Shown here: piece by piece, positions 1,756-34,429 of the stretch
Layout of the letters: each line of letters opens with the position of its first letter
How positions within the stretch are numbered: the stretch's first letter is position 1
Notes under the pieces: generated by a model
Told to the model about the DNA's origin: nothing
The model's database searches: none
What the model saw: the letters and a program-made list of their open reading frames with translations, nothing else
Position numbers and translations under genes: made by a program
From: a virus
DNA length: 36,106 nt
Virus record (IMG/VR): IMGVR_UViG_3300032287_004047
Coordinates: 1-36,106 of that record
Reading direction: 5' to 3' (one strand)

Positions 1756-2487
1756 ATGAGATCATTTTCATCTTACATCATGGAATCAACTTCCTCTCAA
1801 TTAAGAAAAAATATTGAAAGCACAATTCAATTTTTGGAATCAAAGAAAAAAGTATTGTTTTTAACGACATCCAATCGCTATGATAAAAACGTGGATGATA
1901 TTCCAAAAAGCACACAAATCGCATATTATATCCAAGAAATGGTTGGAATGAAAAAAATAGAAATTATAGAAGTTCCAAAATTAAACATATATAATTGTGA
2001 AGGAAATGTGAGCAGTGCAAGTGGAAATGGATGCGGAAAAAAAGAAGCAATTTTAGAGGACAAAGTGAAAAACCCATCAGGACTTCATCGTTGCTGGTGC
2101 TCAAAACACCATAATGACGATGAACTTTGGAAGATTTCTAGATCGCTTTTTGAATCCGATTGTGTATTGTTTTTTGGTTCTGTGAGATGGGGTCAGACTA
2201 ATTCCATATACCAAAAACTCATTGAAAGATTGTGTTGGATTGAAAATAGACACACAACACTCAAAGAATCCAATATTGTCAAAGACATCTGTGCTGGAAT
2301 TGTTTTAACTGGACAGAATTGGAATGGAGAAAATGTCATAGAAACACAAAAACAAGTTTTGAAATTCTATGGATTCGATGTGAAAAACGAAATTTGTTGG
2401 AATTGGCAATATACAAACAATGCAAATGATGAAACAAAGGATTCCTACAAAGATGCAATTAAGGAATTTCACAATCAAATAATCTAA
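1756..2487 (+). CDS. Flavodoxin-fold NAD(P)H-dependent FMN reductase-like protein
   Basis: 243 residues, starting two bases after the preceding stop, so it is likely co-transcribed with the spike gene. After a helical N-terminus a parallel beta/alpha fold begins at KKVLFLTTSNRYDKN (31-45), the position of the flavodoxin phosphate loop. The segment VLFFGSVRWGQTNS (137-150), followed by a helix IYQKLIERL, matches the second FMN-contacting loop of WrbA/iron-sulfur flavoprotein-type reductases. Between them is a Cys-rich insertion (C81, C93, C113, C115) that could bind a metal or a cluster. Family members transfer electrons from NAD(P)H to FMN or quinones. In a phage it would be an auxiliary metabolic or redox gene. 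The fold call is moderately sure; substrate and cluster are unknown. Confidence 0.6.
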   Translation: MRSFSSYIMESTSSQLRKNIESTIQFLESKKKVLFLTTSNRYDKNVDDIPKSTQIAYYIQEMVGMKKIEIIEVPKLNIYNCEGNVSSASGNGCGKKEAILEDKVKNPSGLHRCWCSKHHNDDELWKISRSLFESDCVLFFGSVRWGQTNSIYQKLIERLCWIENRHTTLKESNIVKDICAGIVLTGQNWNGENVIETQKQVLKFYGFDVKNEICWNWQYTNNANDETKDSYKDAIKEFHNQII

Positions 2488-2490
2488 ATA
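2483..2490 (+). promoter_or_regulatory. T4-type late promoter box (TCTAAATA)
   Basis: TCTAAATA overlaps the stop codon of the reductase gene and lies 6 nt before ATG 2497. It resembles the T4 late consensus TATAAATA read by the gp55 sigma factor. The predicted transcription start falls at or beside the ATG. Confidence 0.6.
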
Positions 2491-2496
2491 TTAATT

Positions 2497-3534
2497 ATGA
2501 ACAAGTTTGACAAGTCGGTAAATATTCTTTTGGAAAATCTTATTTTTGAGCAAGATCAGAACGAAATTCAAAAAGCACAAGAAATCGTAGATAAAGCTAG
2601 AGAAGATATTAAAACTCAATTTAATGCTGATCCTAAAACATTTATACAAAATGCCAACAATAAAATAGCATCTTATGATTATTTAGCCGATGCATTCGTG
2701 GATTATGTTACAAAAATCAAAGACTCTTCCATAAAAACAATTCAAGACACTTCAAGTATAAAAGAACAGACCGACGATACACTCCAAGATGTAACATCCA
2801 AGGTAAAGGATTTCGCTCTTCAATTTGGTAAAAAGGCTGGAAGTATGATTGGTGGAGCATTTGAAGAAGGACTTGATTTTGTCACAGATGAACTTGTTGA
2901 AAAAGCACCATCGATCATGAAAGGACTTATGGGATCGGAAACATACGATAAAGTTAGAGCGGAAGTTGATCAAATGGAAGATAGTTTTTTGTATAAAATG
3001 TTTGCATTTTTGGACCCAACAGGCGTATTGTCTTGGACATATTTGGAGGAAGCTAAAGCTCTTTATGAAAAAAACCTTGGAACAGATAACGAAGATATAT
3101 ATACATTGAATCTTTTAGCAGCGGCAGTGGCCGTGATACCTGGCGTCAGTGCATTGAAAATATTCACAGTTCCTTTTAAAATATTATCTCCATTGACAAA
3201 AATTTTTGGTGTTGGAAGAGCGGAGAGAATAGCTAAAGCCGTTGCAAATGAATTTAAAACGGCATTTAATTTGGGAGGAAAGATGCAAAAAGCAACAACA
3301 CTTGGAGGAAAAATTGGATCATTTGCGAAACATATTGCAAAACCAATTAAACCTATTGGGAAACTTGTTGCATCCGGAGGAAAAGCCGCCACGATTGTTT
3401 CTTCTGGCGACATCCCACAAACATGGAAAGACTGGACGGAAGCTGGAAAGAAATCATTGGAAGACGCAAAGCCAAGAGAAAGAACGCTTGGAAAATTCCC
3501 AAGCTTCAATAACTTATCAACGCAACGTTTTTAG
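2497..3534 (+). CDS. Unknown virion-region protein with pretoxin-like hydrophobic core
   Basis: 345 residues. The first 130 residues are helical and charged. At about 168-235 comes a segment that starts DPTGVLSWTYLEEA, continues through a Tyr-containing helix, and reaches a hydrophobic LLAAAVAVIPGVSALKIF run. This DPTG...IPGVSALK layout recalls the pretoxin region that precedes effector domains in polymorphic toxins, and the membrane-active parts of phage internal proteins. The remaining C-terminus is basic, Gly/Lys-rich and probably flexible. There is no signal peptide and no recognisable catalytic motif. A late box lies 6 nt upstream. Its end overlaps the convergent Nudix gene by 18 bases. 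It could be an ejected internal protein or a tail component; the function is not established. Confidence 0.55.
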   Translation: MNKFDKSVNILLENLIFEQDQNEIQKAQEIVDKAREDIKTQFNADPKTFIQNANNKIASYDYLADAFVDYVTKIKDSSIKTIQDTSSIKEQTDDTLQDVTSKVKDFALQFGKKAGSMIGGAFEEGLDFVTDELVEKAPSIMKGLMGSETYDKVRAEVDQMEDSFLYKMFAFLDPTGVLSWTYLEEAKALYEKNLGTDNEDIYTLNLLAAAVAVIPGVSALKIFTVPFKILSPLTKIFGVGRAERIAKAVANEFKTAFNLGGKMQKATTLGGKIGSFAKHIAKPIKPIGKLVASGGKAATIVSSGDIPQTWKDWTEAGKKSLEDAKPRERTLGKFPSFNNLSTQRF

Positions 3535-8863: not shown

Positions 8864-10420
8864 GTGAAAGAAAAAATTACACAATTCCTAAACGACAAAT
8901 ACAAAGGCACTACAAGGTTTTTAAAACCTAAAATGTTCATAGAAAACTTCGGAAAAGAAGCATTCGAAAAAATAGAATCAACAATAAATTGGATAGAAAA
9001 ACCATTTTCTTTAAAGGTTTTTTGTTATCTTAATGGTATTCTACAAAAACCAACATGTAAAATTTGTGGAAATGATGTCAAGTTTAATCCAACAGAATTG
9101 CATTTTCAAACATATTGTAGCAATTCCTGTAGATATAAGGATCATGAGCATATTAAAACAATAAGAGAAAAGACAAATTTGGAAAAATACGGAGCAGGAA
9201 ATGTTTTCGCATCAAAATATGGAATGGAAAAAATTAAACAAACCAATCTTGAAAAATATGGAGTGGATAATTATTGTAAAACGGATGAATATAAACAAAG
9301 AGTTAAAAGTGGAGAAATCGAAAGACCTTATGTTGGTGACAAGGTAGCGCATTCCATAAAAAAGAATTATTATTTCAATAATTTACCAAACAGATACAGT
9401 AAATTGATTCCTCTCTTTGATTTTGAAGAATATAAAGGAGCGCACGATTACAATGTGGAATATAAGTGGAAATGTAAAAACTGTGGCAATATATTCCATC
9501 ATTGGCTTAATAATAACTATAATATCAGGTGTAAATTATGCGATAAAAGTGGAACGAATATAGAAGTTTTTATTGAAGATTTCTTCAAAAGACATCAAAT
9601 AGCCCACAAGAAGAGGGATAGATTGATTTTGGAAAATTTGGAATTGGATTTTGTAATTCCTTCACATAATATCGCAATAGAATGTAATGGCCTACATTGG
9701 CATAGTGATAAACACAAAGAAAAAAGATATCATTTAATGAAAACTGAAAAATCTTTGGAAAAAGGAATTAAACTTATTCATATTTTCTCAGATGAAATAG
9801 AATCGAAACCAAGACAAGTTGAAAATAGACTTAAGAGTATATTTGGTTTGAATAAAATAAAAATAAATGCAAGAGATTGTGAAATTAAAGAGATAAATCA
9901 CGAATTATCGACAAAATTCCTAATAAAATACCATTTGCAAGGGTCCGATATTGCATCTACTAGATTAGGTCTTTTTAAAGGTAACAGGTTAATTTCAGTT
10001 ATGACATTCGCAAAATCCAGAAAAGCTTTGGGGCAAAATCTTCAAGAAGGAGAATATGAGCTTAGTAGGTTTTGTTCCATGGGAAATGTCACGGTTAATG
10101 GGGGTGCTCAAAAATTATTATCATTTTTCATTAATAAACATAATCCTAAAAGAATCATTAGCTTTTGTGATAGGAGATGGTCTAATGGTGAATTGTATAA
10201 TAGATTGAATTTTAAATTAATTAAAAAGACAGATGTTAATTATTGGTATGTGGATAAAACGTGTAGAAAAAGATTTCACCGATTTAATTTTGCAAAACAA
10301 TTTCTATCTGAAAAATTAGAACAGTTTGATCCAGCACTATCAGAAAGAGAAAATATGATAATTAACGGATATAAGAGAATATATGATTGTGGAAGCCTAA
10401 AATACGAACTAGTTCCCTAA
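8864..10420 (+). CDS. Free-standing homing-endonuclease-like protein (Vsr/PD-(D/E)XK type) with Mom/GNAT-like C-terminus
   Basis: 518 residues from GTG 8864, with AAGG about 8 nt upstream. Order: helical N-terminus; a zinc knuckle (C65, C68, C85, C89); two NLEKYG repeats (106-110 and 128-133), a motif of phage homing-endonuclease DNA-binding regions; a second zinc knuckle (C204, C207, C223, C226); and a nuclease core at about 233-315. In the core, IEVFIEDFF, LELDFVIP, AIECNGLHWH and GIKLIHIFSDE follow the Vsr-like/EDxHD homing-endonuclease pattern. The last 170 residues (LGLFKGNRLISVMTF, YELSRFC, SFCDRRWSNGELY) look like a GNAT fold of the Mom type. It sits between terminators and interrupts the head/packaging genes. 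A perfect TTGACA lies at 8830-8835, but no convincing -10 follows. Nuclease call good, C-terminal call tentative. Confidence 0.8.
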   Translation: MKEKITQFLNDKYKGTTRFLKPKMFIENFGKEAFEKIESTINWIEKPFSLKVFCYLNGILQKPTCKICGNDVKFNPTELHFQTYCSNSCRYKDHEHIKTIREKTNLEKYGAGNVFASKYGMEKIKQTNLEKYGVDNYCKTDEYKQRVKSGEIERPYVGDKVAHSIKKNYYFNNLPNRYSKLIPLFDFEEYKGAHDYNVEYKWKCKNCGNIFHHWLNNNYNIRCKLCDKSGTNIEVFIEDFFKRHQIAHKKRDRLILENLELDFVIPSHNIAIECNGLHWHSDKHKEKRYHLMKTEKSLEKGIKLIHIFSDEIESKPRQVENRLKSIFGLNKIKINARDCEIKEINHELSTKFLIKYHLQGSDIASTRLGLFKGNRLISVMTFAKSRKALGQNLQEGEYELSRFCSMGNVTVNGGAQKLLSFFINKHNPKRIISFCDRRWSNGELYNRLNFKLIKKTDVNYWYVDKTCRKRFHRFNFAKQFLSEKLEQFDPALSERENMIINGYKRIYDCGSLKYELVP

Positions 10421-11363: not shown

Positions 11364-13568
11364 ATGGCAGCAAAAAAAGGACCAAAAGAGAAATTTTATT
11401 TGGGTAATAGTAATCTTCCCACAGCAAATACGGAATACGACTACACTCCTGATATGATCAAGGAGATTGCAAAGTGTAGGAAAAACATTCTACACTTTGC
11501 AAGCAATTATTTTTACATTGTCAATGTGGATGAGGGTAGACAGAAGATTAAACTGCATAAGTTTCAGAAAAGAGTTTTAAAATCTTTAAGTGAAAATCGA
11601 TTTAATATATTATTAGCAAGTCGTCAAGTAGGCAAAGCCTTGGCACTAGATACTCCAATTAAAACACCAAATGGTTGGACAACAATGGGAGAATTAAAAG
11701 ATGGTGATCAAGTATTTGGTTTAGATGGAAACCCCTGTAATGTTGTAAAAGCCCATGAAGTTTTACACAATAGAAAATGCTATGAGATAGAATTTGAAAA
11801 CGGGGAAAAGATTGTTGGAGATGCCGATCATCGTTGGTTTACTCAAAATTCAAAAGAAAGACAACGTAAAATGAATGGGAGCGTTAAAACAACCGAAGAG
11901 ATATTTAAAACATTATACAGAAATAAAACTGAACCAAATCATAGAATACCTTCATGTTTCACTGGATTAAACCACGAAGAAAAAAATCTAATCATTCCAC
12001 CTTATGTGTTGGGATTGTGGCTTGGCGATGGTTCAAATGAAAGCTCTAGAATTACAGTTGGGAAAAGAGATATAGATGAAACTCTGGAAGTCTTAAAAGA
12101 ATATACGCAATACAAAGTAACTTGTAAAAAATGGAAACAGCAAGCGTATAGTTTAAATTTGGGAATGTTAAGTGGAAGATATGGAATGAGAAAGGAAACA
12201 TCTTTGAGTGAAGAGTTGAGAATCATGAATCTGTTTAACAATAAACATATACCGAATGAATATATGTATTCTTCCAGAGAACAGAGACTGGAATTGTTAA
12301 AAGGTTTAATGGATTCTGATGGATATATTGACAAAAAAGGAATAGGTATTTTTTATAACACAGATTTAAAATTAGCTATACAAGTCAAAGAATTAATAGA
12401 AAGTTTAGGATATAAAACAACTTACAAAACATTTATTCCAACATTAAACGGAATAGATTGCAGTGAATGTGCTGAAGTTATTTTTAAACCAAGAGAATTA
12501 GTGTGTAAGCTTTCTTTCAAAACATCCAGAATTGAGATTAATAAAATTGAAAAACCAGAGTCGAATAAAAGAAATCAATGGCATTATATAAAAAATATAA
12601 AAGAAATTGAATCCATTCCAGTTCGATGCATTACTGTGGATTCTTCAGATAGTTTATTCTTGGCTGGAAAAACTTTAATACCAACATCTAATACAACGCT
12701 TATGACAATTTATGGATTATGGGTTGCATTATTTGAAGAAGATCAAAGAATTCTGATTGTGGCAAACAAAGAACAAACTGCAAAGATGATTCTTAAAAGA
12801 ATTAAAACAGCATTTGAAATGATGCCAAATTTTATTAAAGCTGGTGCTGTGGAATACGGTCAAACTAATATTACACTTTCTAATGGTTCTTCTATCGGTA
12901 TATCCACAACAAGTAGCGATGCGGGTCGTGGAGAATCCGTCAATCTTTTAATTTTGGATGAGTTGGCATTCCTTGATGCTGGACTGTTGGAAAACTTTTG
13001 GAAATCTGTTTATCCAATCATTTCATCCGCCAAAAAGTCCAAAATTCTCGCAGCATCGACACCAAATGGTATAGGGAACTTATTTCATGATCTTTGGGAG
13101 GGTGCGATAAAAAAAGGAGAAGAATGGAACGGTTGGCACGGTGAAAGAGTTGACTGGTGGGACGTACCAAGCAGAGATGAAAAGTGGAAAAATGAAACAA
13201 TACGAACGCTTGGTTCAAAAGAAGCATTCATGCAAGAATTCGAGAACGCTTTCCTCACATCCGGAGAAATGCCAATCGACAAAGACGTTTATGATATGTT
13301 GGAAGCTGGATGCAAAGACCCAGAATACATATTCGATGATGGACAATATGTGGTATGGGAAGAACCAAAAGAAAAGTCATTTTATGCAGTTGGTGTGGAC
13401 GTTGGAGAGGGTCTGAATCAGAATGCCACAGTTGCACAGATTCTAAACCTCACGGACCTCACAAACATCACACAGGATGCCATATACTATACTAAAAAAA
13501 TATCACCTTATCATTTCACACAAAAATACACGATCTTCTCCAACAATGGGGAAGACCACCAGTTTTAA
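11364..13568 (+). CDS. 17: Large terminase gp17, ATPase part with in-frame intein
   Basis: 734 residues as read. The gp17-type packaging ATPase begins here: SRQVGK (86-91) is the first half of the P-loop. It is cut by a 352-residue intein (92-443) and resumes with TT (444-445), so splicing would restore SRQVGKTT, the same as T4 SRQLGKTT apart from one residue. Walker B is LLILDE (528-533), the coupling motif is STPNG (565-569), and the nuclease domain begins with the metal-binding aspartate in YAVGVDVGEG (D679). From about codon 721 the reading frame is wrong (TIFSNNGEDHQF, then stop). The correct continuation lies in the -1 frame and leads into the 13607-14167 open frame. The motor cuts concatemeric DNA and pumps it into the prohead through the portal. 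Confidence 0.95.
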   Translation: MAAKKGPKEKFYLGNSNLPTANTEYDYTPDMIKEIAKCRKNILHFASNYFYIVNVDEGRQKIKLHKFQKRVLKSLSENRFNILLASRQVGKALALDTPIKTPNGWTTMGELKDGDQVFGLDGNPCNVVKAHEVLHNRKCYEIEFENGEKIVGDADHRWFTQNSKERQRKMNGSVKTTEEIFKTLYRNKTEPNHRIPSCFTGLNHEEKNLIIPPYVLGLWLGDGSNESSRITVGKRDIDETLEVLKEYTQYKVTCKKWKQQAYSLNLGMLSGRYGMRKETSLSEELRIMNLFNNKHIPNEYMYSSREQRLELLKGLMDSDGYIDKKGIGIFYNTDLKLAIQVKELIESLGYKTTYKTFIPTLNGIDCSECAEVIFKPRELVCKLSFKTSRIEINKIEKPESNKRNQWHYIKNIKEIESIPVRCITVDSSDSLFLAGKTLIPTSNTTLMTIYGLWVALFEEDQRILIVANKEQTAKMILKRIKTAFEMMPNFIKAGAVEYGQTNITLSNGSSIGISTTSSDAGRGESVNLLILDELAFLDAGLLENFWKSVYPIISSAKKSKILAASTPNGIGNLFHDLWEGAIKKGEEWNGWHGERVDWWDVPSRDEKWKNETIRTLGSKEAFMQEFENAFLTSGEMPIDKDVYDMLEAGCKDPEYIFDDGQYVVWEEPKEKSFYAVGVDVGEGLNQNATVAQILNLTDLTNITQDAIYYTKKISPYHFTQKYTIFSNNGEDHQF
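11637..12692 (+). other. Class 3-type intein with LAGLIDADG endonuclease in the terminase P-loop
   Basis: 352 residues, from Ala (ALALDTPIKTPNGW, block A) to Asn (LIPTSN, block G), with Thr as the first residue of the C-extein. The usual Cys/Ser at position 1 is Ala. Class 3 inteins replace it with a Trp-Cys-Thr set, and all three are present: W after H-R in block B (GDADHRW, W158 of the precursor), C in block F (VRCITVD, C422) and T in block G (T441). The penultimate His is Ser (S442), which is unusual and may slow Asn cyclisation. The centre holds two LAGLIDADG motifs, VLGLWLGDG (215-223) and LKGLMDSDG (312-320), so it is a likely homing intein. Boundaries are exact because the exteins rejoin into a perfect P-loop. 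Confidence 0.93.
13521..13527 (+). other. Frame change in the terminase gene at an A-run
   Basis: The run caaaaat (five A) is where the coding frame must move by -1. Adding one A gives QKIHDLLQQWGRPPVLIER, continuous with the conserved nuclease segment. The options are a single-base deletion, a homopolymer sequencing error, or ribosomal slippage on AAA. Confidence 0.7.
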
Positions 13569-13606
13569 TTGAAAGAAATGGATGTGGTGCTCAAGTAGTC
13601 GATTCC

Positions 13607-14167
13607 TTGAAAATGAATTATGGTTATGAAAACATAGTCACATGGGGGACCAGAGGCGCAATAGCTAATGATTTCAAGGCAACAAACAAGGCTGGTATTA
13701 TAAGTCACCAAAATTCCAAGATAGAAGCCGTCACAAACATGAGATACTTTCTTAATGAAATGAGATCCGTAAAAATCAGGGATATTAAGACACTCCAAGA
13801 AATCAAAGACTTTATTAGACACCCAAATGGAACTTGGAGCGGAAGAACCGCAAATACACTAGATGATAGGGTTATGTCACTCGTTTGGACTCTTGCTGTT
13901 CTTCAAAACGATATTTGTAGAAAATATTTTGAACTCATTTCAATGGATGACAACCAAAGACCTCTCAAAATAAAAGCAATTGATTATGGGGTTACAGACA
14001 TAATGACACCAAGTAATATATATGTCAATGAAAAGGATGCCCAAGCATTCATGCCCCTTCCAACCTTATTCAGCGATCCAGTTGGAATGTCAGATGATGA
14101 ATTCTCCAATATTCCAGATTATGAGATATTAAAAAAACAAGGATGGGACGTTTTCAATAAGAGTTGA
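13607..14167 (+). CDS. 17: Large terminase gp17, nuclease C-terminal part (displaced frame)
   Basis: The open frame from ATG 13607 gives 186 residues, but homologous coding begins upstream at about 13526 in the same frame (IHDLLQQWGRPPVLIERNGCGAQ). The second acidic nuclease residue is E in VLIERNG, matching E458 of T4 gp17 (VYIELNS). The third is in the TLDDRVMSLVWTLAVLQ segment, matching the T4 HDDLVMSLV motif (D542). The segment therefore completes the RNase H-like nuclease that makes the packaging cuts. It has no promoter or ribosome site of its own at 13607, which fits a broken-off 3' part rather than an independent gene. It ends 14 bp before the ATG of the tube-like gene. Confidence 0.9.
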   Translation: MKMNYGYENIVTWGTRGAIANDFKATNKAGIISHQNSKIEAVTNMRYFLNEMRSVKIRDIKTLQEIKDFIRHPNGTWSGRTANTLDDRVMSLVWTLAVLQNDICRKYFELISMDDNQRPLKIKAIDYGVTDIMTPSNIYVNEKDAQAFMPLPTLFSDPVGMSDDEFSNIPDYEILKKQGWDVFNKS

Positions 14168-14168
14168 T

Positions 14169-14176
14169 TCTAAATA
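14169..14176 (+). promoter_or_regulatory. Late promoter box (TCTAAATA)
   Basis: Lies 5 nt before ATG 14182, directly after the terminase stop. It fixes that ATG as the start in preference to the upstream TTG at 14164. The 16-mer is identical to the one at 3962-3977. Confidence 0.65.
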
Positions 14177-14181
14177 ATCAT

Positions 14182-14760
14182 ATGTCCAATCTTTCAATAT
14201 ACCAGTCTCCTTTTAATAAACAAAGAAAGGACAAGTTCATAATGGTTTTTGATTTGCCAAAGATATTGAAACCCCAAAAATCTGTACTTGTCAGGGCAAA
14301 CAACAAGGTCATGCCAGATTCTGTTCAATTTTCAATATACGGAACAGTCATTCCAAGTTTAGCAATACCAGAAGTTAAGGTTCCATATGGTGGTCAGGTT
14401 CCAAAAGTTACATCTTATAATAGACCTTCTTTTGAAAATATGACTGTTAATTTCACAATTGATAACCTTTTTAACAACTATTGGGTCATGTACAGGTGGT
14501 TAAACTCTTTTAATGATGGAAAAAAGGGAATATATAATAGTCCCTTACCATCAAAAGGATTCATGCCCGACTATCAGACCAATATTACAATATATGGCAG
14601 GGACGAATACAATAAAAATATTATAAAATTTAATTTTCTACATTGTTTTCCCGTTAATTTGGGTGGTGTTAGTTATTCAGACAGGGATGCAGGAGAAATG
14701 GAATCTTCATTTCAGTATGCATATCATCAGTTTGAGGCCGAATTATTGCCAGAGCAGTAA
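14182..14760 (+). CDS. Tail tube-fold protein (gp19-like paralogue)
   Basis: 192 residues. The layout follows the gp19/Hcp-like tube fold: an early strand (FIMVFDLPKIL), a central SFENMTVNFTIDN strand followed by YWVMYRWLNSFNDG, the analogue of the tube helix and loop, then FNFLHCFPVNLGGVSYSDRD and a closing strand FQYAYHQFEAEL. This order matches gp19-type proteins, where a 'fP..vg.l' turn precedes the final 'f.v.f.y..w' strand. The true tube protein is at 17243, so this copy could be a tube terminator or neck-proximal component (gp3-like) or a second tube protein. It lies between terminase and sheath. The start was chosen by late-box spacing. Confidence 0.6.
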   Translation: MSNLSIYQSPFNKQRKDKFIMVFDLPKILKPQKSVLVRANNKVMPDSVQFSIYGTVIPSLAIPEVKVPYGGQVPKVTSYNRPSFENMTVNFTIDNLFNNYWVMYRWLNSFNDGKKGIYNSPLPSKGFMPDYQTNITIYGRDEYNKNIIKFNFLHCFPVNLGGVSYSDRDAGEMESSFQYAYHQFEAELLPEQ

Positions 14761-17242: not shown

Positions 17243-17794
17243 ATGGCAGCAACAAAACAAACTATCCAAGACTTCTACAGAGTAGCGGCAGAACGTGATT
17301 TCGCACGTGATGTGCAATTCAGAGTATTAAGTATTTCACCACAAGGAACCACAATCAAATTCGATGAAAATGATTTGGTTTATGCTACCACAGCCACTCT
17401 TCCATCTAGGGCAATCAGCAACGTTAATGCGAAATATATGGGATTGACGTTCAATTTACCAGGCGTGGCGACTTATCCGAATTCCAATGCATATAAATTG
17501 ACTTTTTATTGCAGTGCAAATTCCGATTTACGTCAAAAGTTCATGGACTGGACTAGAGACACCTTTGATGATGCCGATAGTACTGGAAATTATTTAACAC
17601 CTACTCAAAACTCAACAATCGACCTCATTCAATTAGATAATAATTTTGAAAGAATCAATCAATATCAATTAGTCGGCGTAAGCATTCAGAGTGTTGGTGA
17701 CATATCATATACAATGTCCGAAGGAACTGGTGCTGTAAGAACATTTGATGTGACTTTCGCTTATCATTACTGGAGAGACGTAAGAAAGAACTAA
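17243..17794 (+). CDS. 19: Tail tube protein, gp19-like
   Basis: 183 residues (T4 gp19 is 163). Alignable features: DFARDVQFRVLSI near the N-terminus (T4 DFARPNLFQVEI), the TTATLPSRAISNVNAKYMG segment (T4 KATALPAG...), SDLRQKFMDWTRD (T4 DARQKFVDWQS) and the terminal RTFDVTFAYHYWRDV (T4 QTFEVTLALDYWE). Hexameric rings of this protein stack to form the inner tail tube through which DNA passes. It lies right after the sheath gene, as in T4. It has its own late box and another late box just after it, so each tail gene may be expressed at its own level. Confidence 0.93.
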   Translation: MAATKQTIQDFYRVAAERDFARDVQFRVLSISPQGTTIKFDENDLVYATTATLPSRAISNVNAKYMGLTFNLPGVATYPNSNAYKLTFYCSANSDLRQKFMDWTRDTFDDADSTGNYLTPTQNSTIDLIQLDNNFERINQYQLVGVSIQSVGDISYTMSEGTGAVRTFDVTFAYHYWRDVRKN

Positions 17795-17820: not shown

Positions 17821-18744
17821 ATGGCTGGATTGAACGATGCATTCAATAGTGCATTAAATGCATTTAAAAATGTTGGAACGGGTTTAAATCCGTTAACACA
17901 ACCAAATTTTGGAGAACTTCTTGGATTTAATATTCAAGGCACTCCTCTTATATCCACAAGAGATTATTTCCTTCTTCAGCTAGAGTCTTGGTTGACTGCA
18001 ATTCCTCTTCAATCTCAATGGATTGTGTTAATTCAACCATTTCCTGTATGTGTTAATACCAGCATTATTCAAGGACTGGAAAGAACTGGTGGCGATTATA
18101 AAAACTATAATATAGATTCAGCTAAAAACAAATTAACAGCATATCCTTTCCAAAAAGTTAATGGTTGTTTATTTGCTCAAGGAGTTAGCTTACCCCCTGA
18201 AGAATACGGTGTCACACAGGCTCCAATACCGAATACCAGAGGTTTTTTACCAGGCATTTTGGCAGGGGATCGTAAATCACCAAATACATTAAGCATAGAT
18301 TTCCTAGAAACAAATACATCATTTACAGACTTCGTAATAAGACCTTGGGTCATTGCAGCGGAACACTTTGGATTTGTTGCTAGGGAAGGTGATTCTGATA
18401 GGAAAAGAGATTACAGAAATGTTAAATCCACCGTATATATTCTGGAATACACTAGAACATTCCAACACGTATCAATGATTCCAAGAAAAACTTGGGTATT
18501 TTTTAATTGTGCTCCCGTATCCGTTAGCAGCAGAAATCTCACATATGATGAGCCGAATAGTGCTCCAACAATGAAAACAACTTGGACATATACTGATTAT
18601 ACTATTTCAAATTCCCTATATCTTCCTCTCCCAAACATTATAAATAGAATAGCTGGAGCTTTTAGTGGAAGCCTTCCAAGAATAAGCCCTTTTCAAAAGG
18701 GAAACGGTAAAGGCTTACCTCAAAATCTCACAGGTTTTTTCTAA
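17821..18744 (+). CDS. Tail tube initiator-like protein, gp54-like
   Basis: 307 residues (T4 gp54 is 320). After a helical start the protein has strands typical of the tube fold: SQWIVLIQPFPV, a PFQKVNGCLFAQGVSLPPEEYGV turn, then NTLSIDFLETNTSFTDFVIRPWVIAAEHFGF, the fold's main strand-helix, and a TWVFFNCAPVSVSSRNLTYDEPN ... WTYTDYTI close. T4 gp48 and gp54 have gp19-like domains that cap the hub and start tube growth. The position in the tube/hub cluster fits, but direct similarity to T4 gp54 is weak, so it could also be gp48-type. The Gly/Pro-rich C-terminus appears flexible. Confidence 0.55.
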   Translation: MAGLNDAFNSALNAFKNVGTGLNPLTQPNFGELLGFNIQGTPLISTRDYFLLQLESWLTAIPLQSQWIVLIQPFPVCVNTSIIQGLERTGGDYKNYNIDSAKNKLTAYPFQKVNGCLFAQGVSLPPEEYGVTQAPIPNTRGFLPGILAGDRKSPNTLSIDFLETNTSFTDFVIRPWVIAAEHFGFVAREGDSDRKRDYRNVKSTVYILEYTRTFQHVSMIPRKTWVFFNCAPVSVSSRNLTYDEPNSAPTMKTTWTYTDYTISNSLYLPLPNIINRIAGAFSGSLPRISPFQKGNGKGLPQNLTGFF

Positions 18745-33208: not shown

Positions 33209-34429
33209 TTATTGAAAAATATGTTCAGAAAATGTTACTTTTCTTGGGCTAACTACAAAGCCCTCTATTGAGTTCGATGTAAAAACATCATTCCCAAATG
33301 CTTTTCTTAAAATATTACCAGAACCATTTATATCAGCATTTATTTTTTTGTTTTCTTTTGTCTGAAACAAACCTCTTTTTATTCTTTTACCAACATAAGT
33401 ATCATGCTTTTTGATAGACTCCATGTCAATTAAAGAACATTTAGACGTGTATGCCTCATCAACTTGAACAAAAATAATGCCATTCAATTCACATTTATAT
33501 TTCAACATATGTATTAACCTACTATGTGGTATGCTTGTGAATGCTTGATTATTCCTTTTTCCTATGTTTATATCACTTTTCCATTGTTTATTATAACCGC
33601 ATACAATTGTATTGATTTTATTTTCAATTGCCATGTTCACAATATATTTTGAAATATTATGAAGATGGTGTTTGATTTTATCATTTCTTTTGTTTGTTAG
33701 TCTAATAATTTTATCAGATGTATGAACATTTTTAGGAAGTTCTGATTGATATTTCGCTTTCTTTTTATTGTAGAATTGATTTATGCTTTTCAATGTTTTA
33801 CCGTTAATCAGTCTTGGATTGAATCCAGCACGATTTGATGTTATAGCGCAGAGATTATTAACGCCTAAATCGATTGATAAAAAGTTTCCGTTACATTTAT
33901 TTTTTGGTTTTACTTCTTTTTCATATACTATTTCTATTACATATTGTTTATTTTTTGGTATGATTCTCACTTCCATTACATTTTGTTTATCGAATGGAAT
34001 TTTGAGATTGGTTTTGGAAGGAACTATAAATCCTTTTTTTAATTCCTTCTTGGAAAATGCTTGATTATTATAAATTAAAATGTTTCTACCTTTTGTTTTG
34101 TGTTTATATTTTGGAAGAGATGGTTTTCCTTTGAATTTATCTGGACATTTTTTCCATTCTTTAATCGCCTTGAAAAATGATTTCCAATTTCTATCAAGAT
34201 TCAATAAAATAGATTGAGAAACTTTTCTCGGAAGTGCTTGAAAATCCGCATGATTTTTCAAATCAAATGTTAATTGGTAATATCTTATCCATTTTCCGTT
34301 ATTAACGAATTCGTTTCTTATGATATAGTTTCCAACATTATAAAGGTTTTTGGACAAAAAACACAATTGATCCATTTCTCTATAAAGAGAATTTGAAGTT
34401 TTTATTGTTGTTTGTTGAGTTAAAAACAT
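33209..34429 (-). CDS. tnpB: TnpB-type RNA-guided nuclease (IS200/IS605-like, no TnpA)
   Basis: 406 residues, full length for TnpB. RuvC residues are all present: D187 in SIDLGVNN, E325 in VQVDEAYTSK and D366 in INADINGSGNILRK. The zinc finger is degenerate: only TSKCS remains, and the second CxxC is replaced by a GKRIKRGLF segment, typical of a known TnpB subgroup. The N-terminal part (FLSKNLYN, then GKPSLPKYKHK) is the normal wedge/REC region. TnpB uses a right-end RNA to cut DNA next to a short motif, and helps its element persist. No TnpA transposase is nearby, so this is a lone tnpB. It lies between two baseplate-region genes, opposite in direction, and does not interrupt either frame. 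Confidence 0.95.
   Translation of the reverse strand: MFLTQQTTIKTSNSLYREMDQLCFLSKNLYNVGNYIIRNEFVNNGKWIRYYQLTFDLKNHADFQALPRKVSQSILLNLDRNWKSFFKAIKEWKKCPDKFKGKPSLPKYKHKTKGRNILIYNNQAFSKKELKKGFIVPSKTNLKIPFDKQNVMEVRIIPKNKQYVIEIVYEKEVKPKNKCNGNFLSIDLGVNNLCAITSNRAGFNPRLINGKTLKSINQFYNKKKAKYQSELPKNVHTSDKIIRLTNKRNDKIKHHLHNISKYIVNMAIENKINTIVCGYNKQWKSDINIGKRNNQAFTSIPHSRLIHMLKYKCELNGIIFVQVDEAYTSKCSLIDMESIKKHDTYVGKRIKRGLFQTKENKKINADINGSGNILRKAFGNDVFTSNSIEGFVVSPRKVTFSEHIFQ
33211..33222 (+). repeat. Left copy of a 12-bp inverted repeat flanking tnpB
   Basis: attgaaaaatat, inside the last codons of tnpB. Its exact reverse complement lies at 34502-34513 on the other side of the gene. A/T-rich, so chance is possible. 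Confidence 0.4.

Follow-up and report, generated by a model that had tools for sequence, protein, structure and literature searches.

A probable homing class 3 intein with a penultimate serine at the Walker A motif of a T4-like phage terminase

We analysed a stretch of 36,106 nucleotides of the viral record IMGVR_UViG_3300032287_004047 (hereafter the window). The sequence is very probably that of a T4-like phage whose gene for the large terminase subunit (TerL) carries a mobile class 3 intein with a LAGLIDADG domain. We give this reading a probability of roughly 0.87, taken jointly with the order of splicing proposed below, with homing, and with the view that splicing is compatible with the serine found in place of the penultimate histidine. 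The element is of a known kind, with a real, repeatedly evolved and testable variant of its active site.

Boundaries and insertion site

The TerL precursor is encoded by the open reading frame at 11364-13568 (+), with the intein inside it (Table 1). What it encodes is the ATPase portion of a T4-type TerL (Pfam Terminase_6N, E 2.2e-11), and the gene has the layout of gp17, i.e. a Terminase_6N ATPase domain and then a nuclease domain. An in-frame insert of 352 residues follows TerL residue 91 and is flanked by the Lys and the Thr of the Walker A motif (SRQVGK/TT). Among the matches listed, nine related TerL genes have these two codons adjoining in an uninterrupted SRQ[IS]GK-TT, and the boundaries of the intein are therefore exact, just between Lys and Thr as the first-pass annotation had placed them. 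It is a sound expectation that packaging should require splicing at Walker A to be completed. Relatives come from viral scans, with the best 80 loci per scan, and some of the records nearest to the window may be missing from them; a scan of genome contigs returned only two relatives, one of them weak.

Table 1. Coordinates of TerL and intein features in the window.
Feature	Position	Strand	Basis
TerL (T4 gp17-like) N-extein, 91 aa, ends SRQVGK of Walker A	11364..11636	+	empty-site homologues
Class 3 intein, 352 aa, ALALDTP...LIPTSN	11637..12692	+	alignment, numbering check
Block B H65-R66-W67: catalytic His N3:10, Arg N3:11 (proposed His stand-in), WCT Trp N3:12	11829..11837	+	alignment
LAGLIDADG motif 1 YVLGLWLGDG, acidic residue D131	12003..12032	+	alignment, model
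LAGLIDADG motif 2 LLKGLMDSDG, acidic residue D228	12294..12323	+	Pfam LAGLIDADG_3 E 2.9e-7
Block F Cys331 (precursor C422), proposed first nucleophile	12627..12629	+	aligned to 6rix Cys124; invariant
Ser339 at C2:13, position of the block F His in many inteins	12651..12653	+	alignment
Block G Thr350-Ser351-Asn352: WCT Thr, Ser for penultimate His, cyclising Asn	12684..12692	+	alignment, numbering check
TerL C-extein, starts TTLMT, +1 Thr completes Walker A, up to frame loss	12693..13522	+	homologue comparison
Rest of TerL nuclease domain, other frame, one base shorter than relatives	13523..14167	+	comparison with relatives

Assignment to class 3

A letter-by-letter check confirmed the precursor numbers first given for the key residues (W158, C422, T441 and S442) and provides the intein numbering used here: A92 is residue 1, H156 is 65, W158 is 67, C422 is 331, T441 is 350, S442 is 351 and N443 is 352, with T444 at +1. 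The top phmmer matches among PDB sequences are the class 3 DnaB inteins 6rix, 6riy and 6bs8 (E 3.7e-26 to 2.4e-25), and the alignment to 6rix and 6bs8 spans the splicing parts of the insert from the first to the last residue. It places H65, W67, C331, T350 and N352 on H65, W67, C124, T143 and N145 of the M. chimaera DnaB1 intein (6rix), where Cys124-His65-Thr143 plus Trp67 make up the WCT active site (PMC7664689). Hence, the alignment that had been suggested as a check of the class assigns W158, C422 and T441 to the WCT triplet. The intein starts with Ala and has no Cys, Ser or Thr nucleophile at position 1; its WCT triplet consists of W67 (N3:12), C331 (C2:4) and T350 (C1:5); and it ends with Asn (N352) followed by Thr at +1. 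Across 51 aligned inteins among the matches listed, A1, H65, W67, C331, T350 and N352 are invariant, and on these alignments a chance correspondence of the WCT residues is excluded. The penultimate His, part of a THN end that is common in class 3 inteins without defining them, is absent: its place in 6rix aligns with Ser351 (codon TCT).

The predicted fold agrees with this assignment. An AlphaFold model made from 51 sequences (mean pLDDT 94.5, pTM 0.91) has a class 3 Hint domain and a LAGLIDADG nuclease. Its Hint part superposes on 6bs8 and 6rix with Z 21.8, an rmsd of 1.3-1.4 Å and 42-44% identity over 127-130 residues (1.3 Å across 127 residues for 6bs8), as the class 3 fold would have it. 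The entire model matches PI-SceI with Z 27.9, and Foldseek also pairs it with I-DmoI. The presence of a LAGLIDADG endonuclease, claimed from the outset, is upheld by these fold matches, by the Pfam hit and by the two motifs of the LAGLIDADG (DOD) type, whose acidic residues are nearly invariant in the 51 aligned inteins. Together, the WCT alignment, Ala1 and the fit of the model to both folds identify a class 3 intein with a LAGLIDADG endonuclease.

The intein shares Ala1, the block B His, the WCT residues and the C-terminal Asn with the mycobacterial DnaB1 class 3 inteins (6rix of M. chimaera and 6bs8 of M. smegmatis). The solved DnaB1 chains are mini-inteins with a penultimate His and Gln at N3:11, whereas the window's intein has an endonuclease, Ser351 and Arg66. 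The mycobacteriophage TerL1-a inteins separate the invariant P-loop residues Lys and Thr of TerL, as ours does, but in another TerL family and phage group; the phage terminase inteins of that report bear LAGLIDADG domains and belong to classes 1 and 3, and the loss of the penultimate His is reported there for class 1, not class 3 (PMC5050341). The TerL inteins of Escherichia phage kvi and Synechococcus phage B23 have the WCT residues, the K/TT site in a T4-like TerL and the LAGLIDADG domain in common with the window's, to which they are 34.7% and 37.6% identical, but keep the penultimate His.

Distribution and origin of the penultimate serine

Class 3 inteins are usually described as ending in Thr-His-Asn. 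Among the 108 distinct class 3 inteins in the matches listed, 89 have a penultimate His, 18 a Ser and one a Lys, and all 11 relatives read from cultured phages end in THN (0/11 have Ser). The SN end had been called unusual, and in this sense it is rare. It is also fixed in the window's clade and has evolved repeatedly, which the word unusual does not convey. All 10 clade members among the matches listed have Ser351, including three mini-inteins of 140-146 residues that lack the endonuclease. When a tree of the 108 inteins was made with the last three residues left out, 8 changes were required to explain Ser, of which well supported branches make at least 6 unavoidable. Because these intein trees were computed quickly and contain several long branches, the count is approximate; on this estimate Ser originated some six times or more in related TerL inteins. 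Two of the mini-inteins have a dN of 0.034 for a dS of 0.46 (L018/L019), hence Ser-bearing inteins remain constrained even without an endonuclease. This repeated arrival at Ser, followed by its conservation, argues against a simple defect, and as judged from these comparisons the penultimate Ser is real, fixed and repeatedly evolved rather than a private defect of the window. In the literature searched, no paper brought together a penultimate serine and asparagine cyclization in inteins of this class.

Proposed splicing without the penultimate histidine

We infer the splicing chemistry from the sequence. Class 3 splicing has to begin with the Cys of block F, through a branched thioester. Here, Cys331 of block F would attack the Lys-Ala bond with the assistance of His65 and Thr350, Trp67 having a structural role. 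The N-extein would then be transferred to Thr+1 and the intein released by cyclisation of Asn352. Joining Lys to Thr would restore Walker A, and hence the packaging ATPase. At the C-terminal scissile bond, Arg66, which is next to His65, may partly replace the missing His. We regard this compensation as the leading explanation for Ser351, at odds a little short of even.

A parallel in active-site residues is the AceL NrdHF class 3 intein, where both histidines are absent and splicing takes place within minutes; its Arg69 (N3:11), proposed to help with the last step, lies close enough to the C-terminal scissile carbonyl for a hydrogen bond, and R69A makes splicing slower without stopping it (PMC7891396). 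The window's intein has the same set, with Arg at N3:11 (R66) and no His at C2:13 (S339) or C1:6 (S351). Otherwise the two are distant (6zgq: Z 14.9, 14% identity): AceL NrdHF is split, has MCT instead of WCT and a penultimate Gly, and its host gene encodes a ribonucleotide reductase. Placing a His at its penultimate position (G145H) abolishes splicing (PMC7891396). Similarly, the class 1 RDF intein of a mycobacteriophage splices completely with its native Gly and is strongly slowed by G316H (PMC5050341). Since restoring His costs both inteins splicing efficiency, we expect, by analogy, that S442H would harm splicing rather than help it.

These precedents bear on the earlier proposal that Ser makes splicing slow or conditional. 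In its fullest form, Ser would slow the last step, TerL would be activated late or conditionally, and the intein would act as a packaging timer. The absence of both histidines involved in Asn cyclisation (C2:13 and C1:6) could indeed slow that reaction, and conditional splicing is reported for DnaB class 3 inteins (PMC6195587, PMC8557812 and PMC7360933). Yet in their native forms AceL NrdHF splices within minutes and RDF splices completely, and purifying selection acts on Ser-bearing mini-inteins of the window's clade. Moreover, close relatives differ in whether their TerL is empty or has an intein, which gives no sign of a conserved function as a timer. We thus find slow or conditional splicing unsupported, and consider a timer improbable.

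The distribution of residues across relatives is consistent with compensation by Arg66. Arg66 and Ser351 occur together in 10/10 members of the window's clade, and the sister group has neither, with Asn66 and His351 instead. Among the 108 listed inteins, Arg66 is found in 11 of the 18 with Ser (in two lineages, the window's clade and L190) vs 3 of the 89 with His, and these three HN inteins are distant ones. The Ser lineages L039, L058 and L119 have a His at C2:13 (His339) instead of Arg66. One or the other residue is thus present in 14/18 Ser inteins vs 13/89 His inteins, and both are missing from the Ser lineages L101/L103, L113 and L253. When we considered independent pairs, about 4.2 of 6 agreed and essentially none disagreed (median p 0.125), and a coupling of Ser351 to a compensating residue is suggestive only. 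Arg66, Asp22 and Lys38 are among the best candidates in a search for columns that track Ser351, none of them significant with 5-6 independent pairs.

Alternatively, the change from His to Ser could be neutral drift, with a dispensable penultimate His and a coincidental presence of Arg66 or His339. The three Ser lineages devoid of both candidate residues, the non-significant paired test and the residual splicing of the AceL NrdHF R69A variant (PMC7891396) all fit this possibility, which we rate as appreciable but rather doubtful. The pattern of replacement speaks against it, as the sole other non-His residue found is a single Lys. Moreover, a His codon (CAY) cannot become a Ser codon by one base change, and still Ser recurred. 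It was also kept through synonymous codon changes: most lineages use TCN, L101/L103 use AGT, and both TCT and TCA occur in the window's clade. We retain compensation by Arg66 as the preferred explanation. Its extension to the whole group is more tentative: His and Ser plus Arg may be two exchangeable solutions to the last step, TerL class 3 inteins having repeatedly swapped His for Ser and rewired Asn cyclisation through the block B Arg (N3:11) or the block F His. The relatives form a natural series in which His gave way to Ser repeatedly at a single insertion site, whether or not an endonuclease is present, and simple swaps within it would show what the penultimate His contributes.

Selection and mobility

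The median dN/dS, taken over seven full-length close relatives, is 0.10 in the Hint domain, 0.076 in the endonuclease and 0.03 in the exteins. Both intein domains are under purifying selection, and selection on the endonuclease suggests that homing continues. In this process, the LAGLIDADG domain would cut intein-free terL at the Walker A codons, and the intein would be copied in. Synonymous distances in the window's own pairs are 0.30-0.68 for the Hint domain vs 1.5-1.8 for the N-extein (five pairs with a computable N-extein). With L003, for example, they are 0.32 for the Hint domain, 0.46 for the endonuclease and 1.49 for the N-extein. This lower divergence of the intein is as expected for horizontal transfer with co-conversion, and it fails in some pairs of relatives, e.g. 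L001/L003.

On a TerL DNA tree made away from the insertion site, the window groups with a relative carrying an endonuclease-free mini-intein (L020) and with one whose site is empty (L033), with support 99/100. Full, mini and empty alleles are intermixed on this tree among the matches listed. Given such alleles in close TerL relatives, the window's intein looks like an active homing element. Their presence side by side offers a view of the stages of homing in nature, at a position where packaging should depend on splicing. In another close TerL relative (L039, 94% identity across the matched part of the C-extein), this P-loop site is occupied by a distinct class 3 intein (1975-3000), which is 46% identical to the window's and likewise ends in TSN.

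Frame break downstream of the intein

The TerL frame is lost after ~13,522, and the continuation in the other frame begins KIHDLLQQWGRPPVLIERNG. At 13500-13560 the window has one base fewer than its relatives, beside an AAAAA run, and both parts of TerL are in a single frame in the close relatives that cover the break point. As a consequence of the break, the copy as printed could not make full-length TerL. Comparison with the relatives indicates that this is probably an assembly or sequencing error; were it real, this copy of terL would be broken and the intein untouched. A break ~830 bases downstream of the intein is also what one might see if the intein were decaying, no longer spliced, and the record were a pseudogene. 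We find this most unlikely, because the break is a single base private to the record, is not shared by the relatives checked and lies beyond the intein, whose residues are intact and whose dN/dS is low.

Other inserts in TerL and neighbouring genes

Some relatives have a second insert in TerL. Near Walker B, L002 (1560-2100) and L034 (2500-3120) have a class 1-like mini-intein that starts with CFS and ends with HHN/C; in L002 it occurs together with a P-loop class 3 intein. In L004 (4300-6010), L020 (790-2560), L033 (1340-3080) and L035 (1370-3080), a stretch of ~1.2 kb that is out of frame interrupts the second intein at the Walker B site. A naturally split TerL intein whose halves flank a free-standing gene would be expected to look like this. 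Both L004 and L020 combine this interrupted intein with a class 3 P-loop intein (full or mini). Inserts near Walker B in L008 (3200-3800), L009 (3200-4760) and L030 (1-800) have intein-like halves in different frames, and are possibly other split inteins. An Rfam search of the window and of the relatives with a second TerL insert matched no intron family; for this reason we rejected an intron reading and interpret these inserts as inteins.

The window has other genes of note. A free-standing homing endonuclease gene (8864-10420, +; 518 aa) separates the major head protein gene from terL, and matches phrog_3339 (E 1.2e-107) and Pfam DUF7487, Mom-like, with MTES_1575 below threshold. A TnpB-like gene (OrfB_IS605 plus Cas12f1-like TNB) is present in this phage record at 33209-34429 (-). 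Finally, three tail-tube-like genes (phrog_45; 14164-14760, 17243-17794 and 17821-18744, +) surround one tail sheath gene.
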